From positions 248,001 through 312,000 of the forward strand of contig VCCI02000003.1 in NCBI GenBank assembly GCA_005938025.2: a stretch of DNA of 64,000 nt, read 5' to 3'. Below the pieces are notes generated by a model. That model had not been told where the DNA came from. It ran no database searches and saw only the letters and a list, made by a program, of their open reading frames with translations. The translations under genes were made by a program, and so were the position numbers. This document shows, piece after piece, positions 27,995-62,985 of this stretch (positions are counted from its first letter, which is position 1; the number at the start of each line of letters is the position of its first letter). The DNA comes from Inquilinus sp. KBS0705. GTDB lineage: Bacteria; Bacteroidota; Bacteroidia; Sphingobacteriales; Sphingobacteriaceae.

Positions 27995-30900
27995 CTACAT
28001 ATTCCTCCTGTACTGCCCGCCAACCTCGTATAGTGCATGGCTTATTTGCCCCAGCGAGCAATATTTACAGGCCTCCATCAGACTGTCGAAAATGTTATCG
28101 CCGGCTATGGCTTTTTGCTGTAGTTGCTTTAATAGTTCAGGTGTGTGTCGCTGATTCCGTTGCTGAAACAGGTGTAGGGCCGCTATCTGGAATTGCTTTT
28201 CTTCTTCGGTAGCGCGTATCACTTCGGATGGGGTAATCGTAGGCGATCCTTTTTTGTTAAGGAAGGTATTTACCCCAATAATAGGATATTCGCCGGTATG
28301 TTTCAGCGTTTCGTAATACAACGATTCCTCCTGTATCTTGCTGCGCTGATACATCGTTTCCATGGCACCTAAAACGCCGCCGCGGTCGTTAATGGCCTTA
28401 AACTCGGTGAGTACGGCTTGCTCTACCAGGTCGGTGAGTTCTTCTATAATAAAAGCACCCTGTATGGGGTTTTCGTTTTTGGCAAGGCCCAGTTCGCGGT
28501 TAATGATGAGCTGTATGGCCATGGCCCTGCGTACCGACTCCTCGGTAGGGGTGGTGATAGCTTCGTCGTATGCGTTGGTGTGCAACGAATTGCAGTTATC
28601 GTAAATGGCATATAAAGCCTGCAATGTGGTACGGATATCGTTAAAGTCGATCTCCTGCGCGTGCAACGAGCGCCCGCTGGTTTGTATATGGTATTTAAGC
28701 TTCTGTGAGCGATCGTTTCCCTTGTACTTATTCTTGATAGCCTTGGCCCATATGCGTCGTGCTACGCGGCCTATAACGCTATATTCAGGGTCGATGCCGT
28801 TGCTGAAGAAGAAGGAAAGGTTTGGTGCAAAGTCATCAATGTGCATACCCCGACTTAGATAATATTCCACGTAAGTAAAACCATTGCTTAACGTAAAGGC
28901 CAACTGCGTAATGGGGTTGGCACCGGCCTCGGCGATATGGTAGCCGGAGATAGACACCGAATAAAAATTACGCACCTTTTTATCGATAAAATACTGCTGA
29001 ATATCGCCCATCATGCGCAGGGCAAACTCGGTGCTGAAAATGCAGGTGTTTTGCGCCTGGTCCTCTTTTAAAATATCGGCCTGTACCGTACCGCGAACGG
29101 TGGCTATTGCGTAGGCTTTTATCTTTTCGTAAACATCCGCAGGTAAAACCTGATCGCCGGTTAGGCCAAGGAGCATAAGACCGAGGCCATTGTTACCGGG
29201 GGGGAGAGCAGCCTCACCTAAATCCTCTCCAAAGGAGAGGATTTTCCTGTTATCTGTTTTTTCACCTCCCTCTCCTTTGGAGAGGGCCGGGGTGAGGCTC
29301 CTGTCAGGTTGGTTAAATAACCGATGTTTTATAGCCTTAACTACTTGTTGTGGATTTCTTAATACTTCGTCGTTTGTAAAACGGATAACGTCAAAGCCTT
29401 CCCGGTTTAAAACATTGGTTCTTGTTTCATCTTCCTCAGTTGTGAGCATATGGTAACCGCCGTCTACCTCAATAACCAGGCCTTTTAGCAAACAAACAAA
29501 ATCGGCTATATAGCCATCTATGGCATGTTGCCTTCTTATTTTATAGCCCGTTTGGCTGTTTCTTAAAAGTTGCCACAATACATTTTCCGCTTCAGTTTGA
29601 TTTTTTCTGTTATCTCTTGAATTGGCTTTTAGTACTTCCCATATTTTAGTGTCAGCAGTGTAATAGCCTATTTTTTTGGCCTCACCTAAATCCTCTCCAA
29701 AGGAGAGGACTTTCCTGTCAGAGAGGTTTTCACCCCCCTCTCCTTTGGAGAGGGCCGGGGTGAGGCTTTGATACCGCGGCCGCTTTAGCCCTTTCTCATC
29801 ATAAACCCTTCTATAAGCAGCCTCTACCAAATGTTGCAGCTTATTTTCGGTGATGTGTTTTTCGCATTGCTGGTCTATGGCGGCATTCATAAAAAAGCCC
29901 AACAGCATTGGTGCAGGGCCGTTAATGGTCATGCTGACAGAGGTGCTGGCGTGACAAAGATCAAAACCGGAATACAACTTTTTGGCATCATCCAGTGTGG
30001 CGATGCTAACGCCCGAGTTGCCTATTTTGCCGTAGATGTCGGGCCGTGTGTTCGGGTCCTCGCCATACAGGGTAACCGAATCAAACGCGGTAGACAACCT
30101 GTGCGCCGGCTGGCCGAGCGATACATAATGGAAACGCTTATTGGTGCGTTCGGGGCCGCCCTCGCCGGCAAACATACGGGTAGGGTCCTCACCCTCGCGC
30201 TTTAGCGGGAATACCCCCGCAGCGTAAGGGAACTCGCCCGGTACATTCTCTGTAAGCAGCCATCTTAATACATCGCCCCAGGCCTCGTATTTGGGCAGGG
30301 ATATTTTAGGCACCTTTAATTGCGATAACGAGGTATAATACAAAGGTTGTTTTATCTCTTTATCCCTCACCTTGTATATAAAATCATCGGCCTTGTATCT
30401 GGCAACCGTTTCGGGCCACTCTTTTAACAAACGTTTGCAATCGGGGTGCAGGTGGTTCTCTAAATGGTTATAAATATCCTGTAGAGACGCGATACTTCGC
30501 GTCTTTTCCTTTGCATCGGTTGCCTGCAAGTTGGGAGACGCAATGTATTGCGTCTCTACGGTCAGGAGGTCCATCGTCCCCCTCACATTAAACATTTGCT
30601 GGGCGATTTTACACTGCTCATCTACCCAGGTGGTGTAGGCCTGGCTGCTTTCGGCAATTTCGGCCAGGTAGCGTATCCTGTCAGGCGGGATGATGTATAT
30701 CTTCTCCGATTCTCCTTCTTGTTTATTGATTCTTGCCTCTTGATTCTTTAAAAGATCTACCCCCGTCTTCTCCTTCACGGTTTTCATAATGGCAGCGAAA
30801 AGCGTATTCATACCCGGGTCGTTAAATTGCGAGGCCATGGTACCGTAAACGGGCAGATCATCATCGGCGGCGTTAAACAGCATATGGTTGCGCTTATATT

Positions 30901-31954
30901 GCTTGCGCACATCGCGGATGGCATCAAGCGCGCCGCGTTTATCAAACTTATTAAGGGCCACCAGGTCGGCAAAGTCAAGCATGTCTATCTTTTCCAACTG
31001 GGTGGCGGCACCGAACTCGGGGGTCATTACGTAAAGCGATACATCGCAGTAATCTGTTATCATCGTGTCCGACTGCCCTATGCCGCTGGTTTCTACTATC
31101 ACCATATCGTACCCGGCGGCTTTGCAAATATCAATGGCTTCCTGCACGTGCTTGCTCAAAGCCAAATTGGCCTGCCGCGTAGCCAGCGAACGCATATACA
31201 CCCGCGGACTATTTATGGCATTCATGCGGATACGGTCGCCTAATAAGGCGCCACCTGTTTTGCGCTTGCTGGGGTCGACAGAGATTATGGCCAGCGTTTT
31301 ATCCGTCTCCATCAAAAACCGGCGCACAAACTCATCTACCAAGCTCGATTTACCCGAACCGCCCGTGCCGGTTATACCTAATGTTGGGGTGGTAATAGTA
31401 GCAGTGGCGGTTGCAGTAGTAGCTGGCAGTTTAGCGGGGTTGCCCAGTTCGGCAGCGGTTATTAGCCTGGCTATCGATTTGGCGTCTGCCACTGCTCCTG
31501 CCACTGCCACCGGGGTGAGGTTATCACAAGCCTGCATCATATCGTTTATCATCCCTTGCAGGCCCATGGTGCGGCCATCATCGGGCGAGTAAATACGGCT
31601 GATGCCATAGGCGTGCAGCTCGGCAATTTCGTGCGGCAGAAACACCCCGCCGCCGCCGCCGAATATTTTGATATGCCCCGCGCCGCGTTCGGCAAGCAGG
31701 TCGTGCATGTATTTAAAGTACTCTACGTGGCCGCCCTGGTAACTGGTAAGGGCAATGCCCTGCACATCCTCTTGTATGGCACAGTTTACCACCTCGTCAA
31801 CACTACGGTTATGGCCCAGGTGTATCACCTCGGCACCGGTGCTTTGCAGTATGCGGCGCATAATGTTGATGGTAGCGTCGTGCCCGTCGAACAGACTGGC
31901 GGCGGTTACAAAGCGTATTTTATGAGTGCTTTTATACGGGGCGATGCTTTCCAT
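27995..31954 (-). CDS. icmF: IcmF-type fused isobutyryl-CoA mutase with embedded DUF559 nuclease domain
   Basis: A 1319-residue B12 enzyme that isomerises isobutyryl-CoA and butyryl-CoA. Domains: B12-binding at about 10-140 with FDGHD for base-off cobalamin; a Thr/Ala-rich linker near 177-191; a MeaB-like GTPase with P-loop [12 protein letters not shown] at about 193-204; then the mutase barrel ([36 protein letters not shown]) to the C-terminus. Two insertions of repeat origin lie in frame: residues 466-491 and 730-915. The second carries a complete DUF559 endonuclease domain between RPRYQ and [10 protein letters not shown]. Without it the protein would be 1133 residues, near the normal size. 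Whether the mutase still works is not known. The promoter box lies 26 bp upstream. Confidence 0.92.
29211..29299. repeat. 89-bp BIME-like repeat, copy 1 (icmF 3' side of the insert)
   Basis: A head-to-head pair of REP units. Each unit is a hairpin (CTCTCC-TTT-GGAGAG), a 5-base linker and the foot GGTGAGGC. The outer ends are therefore GCCTCACC and GGTGAGGC. It is in direct orientation and nearly identical to the copy at 29679, differing mainly in the central spacer. Confidence 0.9.
29679..29767. repeat. 89-bp BIME-like repeat, copy 2 (icmF 5' side of the insert)
   Basis: Same length and structure as the copy at 29211: two CTCTCCTTTGGAGAG-type hairpins head to head, with linkers ATTTA and GCCGG and feet GGTGAGGC. 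Translated on the minus strand as part of IcmF. Confidence 0.9.
30481..30559. repeat. In-frame GAGACGC palindromic repeat pair inside icmF
   Basis: Ends are inverted: GTAGAGACGC at 30481 and GCGTCTCTAC at 30550. Inside are two hairpins, AGACGCGA-TACT-TCGCGTCT and GAGACGCAAT-GT-ATTGCGTCTC. It encodes [19 protein letters not shown] and then TRSIASL in IcmF (residues 466-491), in a linker between GTPase and mutase parts. Confidence 0.8.
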
Positions 31955-32095: not shown

Positions 32096-32130
32096 TTCGC
32101 CATGTAATAACAACGCTGCAATAATAAAGC

Positions 32131-32158
32131 CGTCATTGCGAGGTACGAAGCAATCTCC
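32131..32158. repeat. Half unit of the CGTCATTGCGA/GAAGCAATCTC repeat
   Basis: CGTCATTGCGAGGTACGAAG followed by CAATCTCC; one arm of the family seen whole at 27882-27977. The other arm is absent here. It lies in the 793-bp gap before icmF, which otherwise holds repeats only. Confidence 0.75.
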
Positions 32159-32199
32159 AAATTGGACAGGGAACAAATTATATATTCAAACGAGTTTTC

Positions 32200-32675
32200 G
32201 CCCGCTCATTGCCGCGGGAGGGCTACTTCTTTTGTCTTGAAACAAAAGAAGCAAAAATTCAAGTCAGCGCGATGCTTCCTGCGCTCCCTGCCGGTTCTTC
32301 ACGCTTTTTTGTCGATTGTTCGCTTTGCTCCAATCCATCCAAAAAAGCTAAACCGACATTCCCGCCATACACCCGGCCCGCGCGCGCTGACAGTAAGGCC
32401 CGCGCTCTTTTTGATTTCGCAACTCCCCGTCAGCAAAGCAGCTTCGGGCGAAAGCGGGTAAAACAATGATGGCCTTGTGCGGAGGCAAGGGCATAGGAAA
32501 TTTTGCTGAAGCCATAGGAATGCGCGAGCGAAGCAGGGCAAAAGATTCCAGCCCGTGGTTTTGCCCGTTTGGCAGGGCAAAGGCCCAGTGCGGCAAAGAA
32601 GCCTTTTTGCTGATTGATTTTTTGGTTCTTTTTGATCAAGCAAAAAGTAATGGGCCTCCGCGGCCAAGAGCGGGC
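32200..32675. mobile_element. Non-coding palindromic element, copy A (476 bp)
   Basis: Left end CCGCTCATTGCCGCGGGAG from 32200 and right end CTCCGCGGCCAAGAGCGGGC to 32675 are imperfect inverted repeats of about 55 bp. Each end holds a hairpin: CTTCTTTTGT-CTTGAA-ACAAAAGAAG at 32226-32251, and CTTTTTG-ATCAAG-CAAAAAG at 32628-32647. The centre shares long stretches with copy B, including CAGCAAAGCAGCTTCGGGCG. Open frames across it are not protein-like and are not kept as genes. Confidence 0.85.
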
Positions 32676-32747
32676 CTATCTCATCATCACGCCCTAATAT
32701 TTTCGAATCCCTCTATCATGCCAAGCCCCCGTCGAAGCACAATGATA

Positions 32748-32981
32748 CTATTGCTTCGCTATATCTGCCAATTCGCTAACATCGGTTTTTAGCTTTTTGG
32801 CTTTCTTTTCTTTCTTTTTAAGATAATCCTGCGCGTGTTCCTTTAGTTCGGCGGCGGCGGCTTCAATATCGTTTTTGCGTTTAATATACAGGTAGGTTAT
32901 CGCCCCGGCAAATATGGCACCAAGGGCCAAACCCGCTACTAACTTATTGCTGCTATGTTGTTTTTTAAATATGTTTTTCAT
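32748..32981 (-). CDS. Small YtxH-like membrane protein
   Basis: A 77-residue protein from the ATG at 32981 (MKNIFKKQHSSNK); the longer frame upstream lies in non-coding sequence. Seen: a hydrophobic helix LVAGLALGAIFAGAITYLYI and then a lysine-rich coiled coil (AAAELKEHAQDYLKKKEKKAKKLKTDVSELADIAKQ). This is the plan of YtxH/gas-vesicle-type stress proteins. Probably inner-membrane anchored. The role is not known. Confidence 0.75.
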   Translation of the reverse strand: MKNIFKKQHSSNKLVAGLALGAIFAGAITYLYIKRKNDIEAAAAELKEHAQDYLKKKEKKAKKLKTDVSELADIAKQ

Positions 32982-33121
32982 GGTTGTAGTTGTTTTATAG
33001 GGTAACACGCCGTTTGCCGTTTGGTTTTTTGCCTTGTTTAAAAGGGGCAAAAGCAAAGGGGGCAGCCCACAATGCTTTCGCATTGCCGCTACCCCCTAAA
33101 ACTAATCTTACTAACTATTAA

Positions 33122-34162
33122 CTATTTTAACACCACCTTGCGCAGTGCATTGGCATAAGCGTCGGTAAAGTACAGCACGTTTTCGCCGGGGCCCAGTAAA
33201 AGGTATTCGGCATGCGCATCTGCCTTGGCACCCACACCATCGCGGCTATCGTTGTAGCCGGCATTAGGGCCAATTATTTTGGTAGCCTTGCCGTTCTCTA
33301 TCTTACGTATCACCCCGTCATCGGCAATATATATGGTACGGCTATCCTTATTGACTACTATACTGGTTATATCGGTAAACTTAATATCGGTATATAGCTC
33401 CTGGAAAGTGCCATTTGGCGTTAACTTATACAGGTGGTTAGGAAGTGCAACATATTTTACCTTATTGTAACCTACAAACATGGCGCTGTAGGTGCGGTCT
33501 AATTCGGTGGCCGGGGGTAGTATACTGTGGTCGTAATTAATAAAGTCGCTGCCTATTTTTTCGTCGTTTATTACTTTATGCTTGCCAATATTGTCGCCGT
33601 CGGCGTACCAAAGCACATCTTCGTAAGGGTCGTTGGCCAGGCACCTAAAATAACCATAATAATACCAGTACGAGCTTATAGCCGCACCTGTGGGGCTATA
33701 CACCCACGACTTGCTGTACCCGTTTGCGTCGTCAACATTTTCGCAAATAAGATGCATGTTGCCATTGGCGGTAAAGCCTATATATTGCGGGCCCAGTAAG
33801 CGATTGCCGTTTTTGTCGGGCTGCAGTACCACGGTTGATACCACCCCCTGTGGGGTAACCCTGCGTACAGCGTTGTTATTTATATCGGCAACGTAAAAGT
33901 TACCATCTTTACCTATGGCAAAGCCAAATGGGGTAGAAAAGCGTGCAGCCGAACCCGTTCCGTCCACCAGTTGCGAGCCCGAGTAGCGCTTGCCGGCAAT
34001 AGTAGTAACCGTGTTTGGCGCCACGCCCGACGATGGCACCGATAGCGACGAAAGGTTGTTTTGGTCAAAGTCGGCCTTGTTGCTTAGGTCGTCGCCTTTT
34101 TTACAATTGCTAAACAGGGTAGCTGCCAGCAATAGCGCCGTGTAGGTAAATTTGTTTTTCAC
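33122..34162 (-). CDS. NHL-repeat-type lipoprotein
   Basis: A 346-residue lipoprotein from the GTG at 34162: MKNKFTYTALLLAATLFSNCKKG, with LFSNC as lipobox. The longer frame to 34345 runs through a repeat and lacks a signal peptide there. The body is a beta-propeller of NHL-like blades: RFSTPFGFAIGKDGNFYVADI, NNAVRRVTPQGVVSTV, DITSIVVNKDSRTIYIADDGV, AEYLLLGPGENVLYFTDAYANALRKV. Such proteins bind sugars or proteins at the surface. No SusC/D genes are beside it. Confidence 0.83.
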   Translation of the reverse strand: MKNKFTYTALLLAATLFSNCKKGDDLSNKADFDQNNLSSLSVPSSGVAPNTVTTIAGKRYSGSQLVDGTGSAARFSTPFGFAIGKDGNFYVADINNNAVRRVTPQGVVSTVVLQPDKNGNRLLGPQYIGFTANGNMHLICENVDDANGYSKSWVYSPTGAAISSYWYYYGYFRCLANDPYEDVLWYADGDNIGKHKVINDEKIGSDFINYDHSILPPATELDRTYSAMFVGYNKVKYVALPNHLYKLTPNGTFQELYTDIKFTDITSIVVNKDSRTIYIADDGVIRKIENGKATKIIGPNAGYNDSRDGVGAKADAHAEYLLLGPGENVLYFTDAYANALRKVVLK

Positions 34163-34283
34163 AATTGGTTTATTGATAATGAAATATAAATTTACCCAAT
34201 GCCCCTGTTTATAAATGCAGGCCATATTACTTGTATACCATTGTGTGAAAAGTGTGCAATTTTTGTGTAGTTGCAGAAAACCA

Positions 34284-34320
34284 AATTCCCTCCCACGGGG
34301 AGGGTTAGGGAGGGGTTTAG
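34284..34320. repeat. REP-like unit, CCCTCCC/GGGAGGG type
   Basis: ATTCCCTCCCACGGGGAGG followed by GTTAGGGAGGGG: a hairpin, short linker and G-rich foot, as at 32064. It overlaps the N-terminal extension that was rejected for the lipoprotein gene. Confidence 0.7.
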
Positions 34321-34340
34321 CCACCATGCCTAACCACCAT

Positions 34341-34456
34341 GTCATTGCGAGGAGCGACAGCGACGTGGCAACCTCATCGCGTTTTCTCCATTGCGATCCG
34401 TTGGCTAACGGACTGGCAATTACCTAACCGTCATTGCGAGGAACGAAGCAATCTCC
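34341..34456. repeat. Two units of the GTCATTGCGAGG repeat family
   Basis: One unit begins at 34341 (GTCATTGCGAGGAGCGACAG) and a clean one at 34429-34456 (CGTCATTGCGAGGAACGAAG, then CAATCTCC). Between them is TTGCGATCCGTTGGC, related to the right arm of the copy at 27882. Confidence 0.75.
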
Positions 34457-34497
34457 TGACAGGACTGCTAACGAAATTTGTACTTTAAACAGGTATC

Positions 34498-35129
34498 GCC
34501 CGCTCATTGCCGCGGGAGGGCTAGTTACTTTTCTCTTGATAGAAAAGTAACCAAAAGATCAAGTCAGCGCGATGCTTCCAGCGCTCCCTGCCGGTTCTTC
34601 ACGCTTTTTTGTCGATTGTTCGCTGCGCTCCAATCCATCCAAAAAAAGCTAAACCGACATTCCCGCCATACGCCCGGCCCGCTCACGCTGACAGTAAGGC
34701 CCCGCGCTTCTTTTTCTTTCTTAGTTCCCCTCTCGAGAGGGGTTAGGGGTGTGTTAGTCGCCATGCATAATAAACCGCGCTCCCTGCCGGTTCTTCACGC
34801 TTTTTTGTCGATTGTTCGCTTTGCTTCAAACCATCCAAAAAGCTAAACCGTCATTCCCGCCATACGCCCGGCCCGCACACGCTGACAGTAGGCCCCACGC
34901 TTCTTTTTTTGATTTGGTTTAAACTCGTTCTTCCGCAGCTACGTCAGCAAAGCGGCTTCGGGCGAAAGCGGGTAAAACAATGGTGACCTGTGCGGGGAAG
35001 GATTTTTTGTCTTGATTTATTCACCTATTGTTTGTTTTTTTATAGGTGTTCATGAGCTCCCTACGGTCGGTTTTTGGTTCTTTTTCATCAAGGAAAAAGA
35101 ACTGGGCCCTCCCGCGGCCAAGAGCGGGC
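34498..35129. mobile_element. Non-coding palindromic element, copy B (632 bp)
   Basis: The ends match copy A: CCGCTCATTGCCGCGGGAG on the left and CTCCCGCGGCCAAGAGCGG on the right. Left hairpin: GTTACTTTTCT-CTTGAT-AGAAAAGTAAC (34524-34551). Right hairpin: GTTCTTTTTC-ATCAAG-GAAAAAGAAC (35077-35102). Stem bases differ from copy A but pair, and the loops are kept. About 140 bp of the interior is present twice (from 34581 and from 34777) with a CCCCTCTCGAGAGGGG REP unit (34725-34756) between. Not coding. Confidence 0.85.
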
Positions 35130-35525
35130 CTATCTCATTATTAAACCATAATATTTAGCTAAGCCCCCTGCCATGCCCAACCCTGCCCAAGCACCCTGCC
35201 AATCGTTCCCCTCCCAGAGAGGGCTTAGGGGTGTGTTAACCACCATACCCTAACAAACCCTGCCATACCGAACCCGCCCGTGCACCCAACCTGCAAAATG
35301 ACCCAATGACGCCCTGCAAAATGGCCCAATGCCGCGCAGCAAATGAAACCGTAAATTTTTGTAAAGGTGCTGTTGTGCCGATAGCTTGCGATAGCCCCGC
35401 TATCCGCTTATACTGCACAAGGCCTTAATCGGCGGGCCGGTATACGCTGCTATCGGGTTTAGGGGGGATGAGTTGTTAACACACACAATACGCGTGTGCC
35501 AGCGAAGAATCCTTTTTTATTAGAT
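35130..35525. other. Gene-free repeat-rich stretch before the AT-rich island
   Basis: No gene seen. It holds a REP unit at 35206-35239 (CCCCTCCCAGAGAGGG, then GGGGTGTG foot), two tandem 23-bp direct repeats at 35290-35334 (CCTGCAAAATGACCCAATG, then with G for A), and GATAGC/GCTATC hairpins near 35378-35405. Composition changes sharply near 35515, where the AT-rich genes begin. Confidence 0.7.
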
Positions 35526-62832: not shown

Positions 62833-62985
62833 GCCCGCTCATTGCCGCGGGAGGGCTACTTCTTTTCCCTTGATGGAAAAGAAGCAAAAGATCAAGACAA
62901 AAAAATCCTTCCACCCACGGGCCTTTACCTTTTGGCCCGGTTTTTTGTCGGGCCTTTGCGCACGTTCGATATTGTCCTAAACCCA
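62833..62985. mobile_element. Non-coding palindromic element, truncated copy C
   Basis: It has the left end (CCGCTCATTGCCGCGGGAG) and the hairpin CTTCTTTTCC-CTTGAT-GGAAAAGAAG (62859-62884), but no right end. After about 62890 the sequence ATCAAGACAAAAAAATCC matches the inverse of a part of copy B near 35000-35020. The end coordinate is approximate. The 541-bp gap between the transposase and the next gene is made of this, the IS end and short sequence with no gene. Confidence 0.75.

Follow-up and report, generated by a model that had tools for sequence, protein, structure and literature searches.

What are the large non-coding repeats that recur in this part of the Inquilinus sp. KBS0705 genome, and what is preserved in them while their hairpins change sequence? 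Our analysis covers the whole 64,000-nucleotide stretch of DNA (the window). An initial annotation had described two copies and a part copy with inverted-repeat ends and covarying hairpins, and had read them as a fold under selection, in RNA or single-stranded DNA, that contains no open reading frame (ORF) common to the copies.

Architecture of the copies in the window

A covariance model of the end of the element (R1) identifies five ends in the window, with E values of 1e-15 to 1e-24. These constitute copy A (32200-32675), copy B (34498-35129) and part copy C (from 62833), all placed correctly by the initial annotation; beyond the five, the end model finds nothing in the window at an E value below 0.04. 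Three seed rows of R1 were hand-adjusted in length, which touches the search only and leaves the pair counts unaffected. The element is modular: an end module of ~65 nt (E), which stands at each terminus as one of an inverted pair, adjoins a branched domain of type X, Y or Z. The features of the three copies and their flanks are as follows.

32131..32157, + strand: CGTC-tagged REP-like palindrome, a flanking repeat ~45 nt outside copy A
32200..32263, + strand (predicted working strand −): left end module E of copy A; R1 95.3 bits, E value 2.3e-24
32263..32391, unstranded: X domain of copy A, closed by GTCAGCGC / GCGCTGAC
32392..32428, unstranded: copy A linker that joins its half elements, too short for coding
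32429..32613, + strand: Y domain of copy A on its predicted working strand (alignment A6; strand from the G-U/A-C asymmetry)
32610..32675, − strand: right end module E of copy A, inverted; R1 63.5 bits, E value 1.3e-15
34429-34455: second CGTC-tagged REP-like palindrome, a flanking repeat outside copy B
34498..34563, + strand: left end module E of copy B; R1 83.7 bits, E value 3.7e-21
34563..34696, unstranded: copy B X domain; after it come another repeat and, at about 34778-34890, a second partial X
34946..34998, + strand: first Y-domain part in copy B, joined to the Z-type end (from sequence comparison)
35016..35077, unstranded: PK2 linker insert (about 55-62 nt) of the copy B right end, located in the sequence
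35064..35129, − strand: right end module E of copy B, inverted; R1 66.5 bits, E value 2e-16
62833..62896, + strand: end module E of copy C; R1 92.6 bits, E value 1.3e-23
62896..62949, unstranded: Z domain of copy C, closed by GACAAAAAA / TTTTTTGTC

Copy A is complete and runs from an end E through an X domain, a 37 nt linker and a Y domain to an inverted end E, which on the + strand forms the 3' end of the Y unit. Its left end has the P1 stem CCCGC/GCGGG, whose loop GCC pairs with the next GGC (PK1), and a P2 hairpin (32226-32251) with the loop CTTGAA, followed by the linker CAAAAA and by TTCAAG (32258-32263), which pairs with the P2 loop (PK2). Inside the X domain are the helices CGGTT/AACCG and GCTTTTTTG/CAAAAAAGC. 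The Y domain has a closing helix GTCAGC../..GCTGA, an invariant GCTTC/GAAGC helix and further inner helices, with the long covarying helix at columns 27-39/156-169 of A6.

Copy B is a rearranged mosaic: its left end and X lead into another repeat, after which come a second partial X, an initial segment of Y and a Z-type right end. It matches copy A at 92% over 34498-34715 and at 84% over 34777-34995. Its left end has the stem GTTACTTTTCT/AGAAAAGTAAC, the loop CTTGAT, the linker CAAAAG and then ATCAAG. The insert in its right end (..AGGTGTTCATGAGCTCCCTACGGTCGG.., 35016-35077) has relatives at the equal linker position in genomes G025, G027 and others, and inside CGTC REPs, as if a small second repeat targeted these hairpins. 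Copy C consists of one end and a Z domain.

The CGTC tag belongs to the separate flanking palindrome and not to E, and we treat the CGTC palindromes as flanking repeats whose membership in the element is putative. Their tags point outward at copies A and B, and the spacer from REP to element is kept within one genome and differs between genomes. A further intergenic repeat of ~100 bp at 35358-35466 of the window recurs in several congeners and adjoins the mutase gene in G020.

Pseudoknots, linker code and proposed working strand

On the + reading, E comprises the P1 hairpin, GGC, the P2 hairpin with a CTTGAW loop, a CAAAA(A/G) linker and WTCAAG. Within a single end the P2 loop finds its complement shortly downstream (CTTGAA/TTCAAG, CTTGAT/ATCAAG), so that the end is an H-type pseudoknot and not a hairpin alone. 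The compensatory stem changes and the CTTGA(T/A) loop that the initial annotation quoted for the left hairpins are present in all three copies. The right hairpin that it set beside them, with the loop ATCAAG, is real but is not a separate structure: it is the same end module inverted, and the complementarity of left and right loops follows from the inverted repetition of one module. The inverted ends, annotated at ~55 bp, match each other over about 58-69 nt at 80-99%. Because stem compensation between inverted copies could reflect copying or conversion, other tests of pairing were needed.

Across 31 ends parsed by hand, P2 changes sequence throughout and P1 occurs as CCCGC/GCGGG, TCTGC/GCAGA, TCAGC/GCTGA and CTCGC/GCGAG. 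Since variable stem lengths misalign in the raw MAFFT alignment, we used padded alignments for E and Y-only alignments for the Y domain. In the padded alignment A7 (22 ends), 95.5% of cells are paired and 13 pairs have changed on both sides. Covariation in A7 is 0.373, compared with 0.099 ± 0.013 after shuffling and at most 0.084 when the pairing is slid, and none of 500 shuffles is as high; the sequences are related and the shuffles ignore the tree.

The loop–downstream pairing of PK2 is itself kept by compensatory change. At its variable pair, 63 unique ends have T-A (47), C-G (9), A-T (4) or a mismatch (3), so that 60/63 are paired against a mean of 37 and a maximum of 47 in 20,000 permutations. 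Whole families make the same PK2 pairing with other sequences (AGCC/GGCT, GCC/GGC and ATAGCC/GGC(C)TAT). In PK1 the GCC of the P1 loop pairs with the following GGC, GGC-type loops accompany a downstream GCC, and GGGC/GCCC, AGGC/GCCT and GAGCC/GGCTC occur as alternatives; the general swap statistic for PK1 is not significant, so PK1 rests on these family replacements. In a minority of ends the linker contains an insert. Loci L098, L032 and L141 carry a further hairpin type with its own loop–downstream complement (CTTTTC/GAAAAG, GCGAT/ATCGC), which is probably another family of the same design.

The PK2 linker follows the stem beside it. At the one varying position, a stem G goes with a linker C in 6/6 cases and a stem A with U in 24/24 (p 1.7e-6), linker length tracks upper-stem length (rho 0.99), and positions where the stem strand has a pyrimidine obey no linker rule. 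On the working strand PK2 is a classical H-type pseudoknot in which a U-rich first loop runs along an A-rich stem. From this covariation of linker with stem, which matches a U.A-U / C+.G-C third-strand code, we infer that the linker occupies the deep groove of the A-rich stem, where it would form U.A-U and C+.G-C triples. Triplex H-type pseudoknots occur in telomerase RNA, SAM-II and the ENE, and are typical of RNA. The element shares with these the U-rich first loop facing an A-rich stem and the pyrimidine third-strand code. It differs from them in being dispersed and intergenic, in having a second consecutive pseudoknot and no known ligand or tail, and in that its triplex is proposed from covariation only.

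The X and Z domains are different structures closed at the equal place; 19 X units entered the comparison of X domains. The Y domain (~185 nt) has 38 pairs in six helices in A6, an alignment of 33 Y domains on the working strand. In A6, 91.6% of cells are paired, compared with 82.1% after shuffling and 37-53% when slid, and 22/38 pairs show double changes, most changes falling in the closing and long helices while GCTTC/GAAGC is invariant. Covariation is 0.261 against 0.101 ± 0.008 in shuffles, of which 0/500 reach the observed value, again with related sequences and shuffles that ignore the tree. Of 177 indel runs among the 33 relatives, 170 are not multiples of three and break any frame, which rules out a coding explanation for the Y domain and upholds the earlier statement that no ORF is kept across copies. 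Covariation measured against shuffled controls favours the initial annotation for both the end and the Y pairings. Together with the PK2 permutations and the linker code, these alignments indicate that the fold is selected, as it had claimed. Folding energy gives no support for the fold (z −0.9 on the working strand) and is uninformative as strand evidence.

The fold appears to be borne by the strand complementary to that used for the left hairpin in the initial annotation. In the longest helix of Y, the non-Watson-Crick pairs of 50 unique sequences on the E-sense strand are A-C in 28 cases and G-T in 4; counted as distinct events per genome and position they number 20 and 4 (p 0.0015), and by genome the split is 9 to 1. 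A weak tendency in the same direction is seen in P1, P2 and the closing helix. As these A-C mismatches become G-U on the complementary strand, the working strand would read the domain first and carry the pseudoknots at its 3' end. The folded form is somewhat more likely to act as RNA than as single-stranded DNA, given the triplex-type pseudoknot and the G-U polarity; against this, G-U pairs are rare in the P2 stem, which fits DNA better.

Distribution and signs of mobility

The genome of Inquilinus sp. KBS0705 (4.38 Mb, 11 contigs, Bacteroidia) has the element at about 11 more places beyond copies A, B and C, as complete and single-ended copies. Copy A is matched in 45/60 relatives and the end model in 160/395 Bacteroidia genomes and 96/196 genera. 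An exact 30-nt core pattern occurs in at least 120 stretches in a set with one genome per GTDB species. The core matches listed with a phylum or genus name belong only to Bacteroidota, Chlorobiota and Neomarinimicrobiota; the Bacteroidota among those listed are Flavobacteriia, Chitinophagia, Saprospirae, Bacteroidales, Cyclobacterium and Balneolaceae, and also Mucilaginibacter, which has the same element type.

Copy number ranges from none to more than 100 within one genus, and the single contig of the congener G025 has 114 end E matches. On G025 contig 1, only 3 elements lie at ~1.6-4.1 Mb, the terminus half as judged from GC skew, and ~58 in the origin half. Single-ended units are frequent, and many genomes contain tandem arrays of units spaced at 240-460 nt. 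Of 82 placed copies, 77 are intergenic; the upstream gene is on the same strand in 41/77 and the downstream gene in 40/77, a random orientation that rules out cis-regulation through a fixed orientation to genes. Recurrent ORF neighbours of E belong to common families only, namely sugar epimerase/dehydratase genes. Ends lie near GDP-mannose dehydratase or sugar epimerase genes in 7/120 loci (L233, L237, L240, L252, L254, L255 and others), and locus L143 is in an apparent polysaccharide cluster.

Presence differs between related sites. Upstream of the mutase gene (window 27995-31954), the intergenic DNA contains copy A here but lacks the element in five congeners; next to a RAYT gene, G020 has the element at a syntenic site where G000 has none. 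We read such differences as probable gains. The congeners are too divergent (about 70% identity) to offer clean empty sites, and no clean empty site or target duplication is readable at junctions that are too diverged or too crowded with other repeats. At locus L026 (contig 7 of the same genome as the window) the P2 loop is split by ~700 bp flanked by an apparent TTTCA duplication.

We found no mobilising gene inside or beside the copies. At least 29 inward-facing pairs of E in G025 are about 425-630 bp across, too little to enclose a mobilising ORF. A search of arrays and inward pairs for a protein gene inside longer relatives, also suggested by the initial annotation, found none. Among 120 FCB loci no transposase recurs beside E. 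A search of 72,556 plasmids and 50,697 phages gave no match to the element, and 2.9 million viral contigs contain only 3 matches to its core, a near-absence that is unusual for an active mobile element.

What kind of element this is

Direct support exists for the pairings and their linker code, for the strand asymmetry, and for dispersal with lineage-specific presence. To account for them we favour, with moderate confidence, a non-autonomous, non-coding interspersed element of the Bacteroidota and the wider FCB group that is spread through its folded 3' end by an enzyme acting in trans. The unit would be a single strand that begins with a 5' branched domain (X, Y or Z, with a long closing helix) and continues through CUUGAU, a U-rich linker, the P2 stem with its AUCAAG loop, GGC and the P1 stem with its GCC loop to the 3' end. 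The P2 and P1 loops would pair with the segments preceding their stems to give two consecutive H-type pseudoknots. Recognition of this folded 3' end by the enzyme, in either RNA or single-stranded DNA, would lead to new copies in intergenic DNA, as single units or as inverted pairs.

Miniature inverted-repeat elements (MITEs) such as MITECca01 of Cardinium (PMC9769881) are the nearest class by outline: the element is likewise short, non-coding, intergenic and multicopy, with inverted terminal repeats and no transposase inside. It departs from them in having folded modules as ends, which vary in sequence while structure constrains them, in its many single-ended units and in that no autonomous parent IS sharing its ends was found.

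A REPIN- or BIME-like mobile DNA repeat, in which a Y1 transposase (RAYT or IS200-like) acts on the hairpins or on the flanking CGTC REPs as single-stranded DNA, would also be intergenic and chromosomal and built of palindromes in inverted pairs. CGTC REPs have been reported in Bacteroidetes (PMC3733652); here they flank element copies, standing ~45 nt outside most ends in G000 and beside many in G025, but many copies lack REP flanks. Most congeners have several Y1 genes, and Y1 is somewhat commoner in E-rich than in E-poor genomes (34/40 and 25/40), yet 6/40 E-rich genomes have no Y1 match and only 3/50 Y1 loci contain any E. At 14 RAYT loci the palindromes are the gene's own and not E, so that a cognate RAYT flanked by the same repeat is missing, and we rejected RAYT/IS200 as the carrier. 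The element unit is much larger than a REP (~250 nt, with pseudoknots and a branched domain), E begins at the P1 stem without the foot tetranucleotide GTAG/CGTC, and the leading/lagging orientation in G025 is weak (20/30, not significant). We regard this explanation as unlikely.

An equally doubtful reading is a structured host RNA, for example one that stabilises RNA or binds protein, which is multicopy and was spread by ordinary duplication and recombination. The triplex-type pseudoknot, the wobbles that mark one strand and the tandem arrays would suit it, but it does not account for the random orientation to neighbouring genes or for the range of copy number in one genus, and Rfam has no match for it. 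At gathering score neither the window nor 14 related loci match any Rfam family, and a permissive search of 32100-35300 yields only chance-level matches at an E value below 5. Flavo-1 and other motifs of Weinberg et al. 2010 are Bacteroidetes-confined structured candidates that are not cis-regulatory (PMC2864571), and Flavo-1, too, can be found in either orientation relative to transcripts (PMC9723704). The element resembles this class as a structured candidate of Bacteroidetes that is not cis-regulatory and differs from it in the lack of an Rfam match.

A SINE-like retroelement whose 3' pseudoknots are bound by a reverse transcriptase is very improbable: the 3' position of the pseudoknots on the predicted strand and the dispersed, intergenic, non-autonomous copies would fit, but G025, the genome richest in E, has no RVT_1 match, which led us to reject reverse transcriptase as the carrier, and reverse transcriptases occur in only 16/40 E-rich and 9/40 E-poor genomes.

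A bolder form of the interspersed-element reading, which we offer tentatively and regard as unlikely, is that these repeats are selfish structured RNAs found across the superphylum. Their two 3' pseudoknots, one triple-helical, would be recognised and recopied into intergenic DNA, and their pairing specificities (CTTGAT, CTTGAC, AGCC, GCC, GCGAT and others) would have diverged into families within and between genomes.

Repeats with this core are present in a large share of Bacteroidota genomes, and no Rfam family or paper that we found describes them. If it is the fold that gets copied, a pseudoknot, and not a sequence or a gene, would define this mobile element, and its covarying specificities would make its partner searchable. 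Even if it proves to be a host RNA, a phylum that includes many gut and soil bacteria would gain a widespread pseudoknot of the triplex type.
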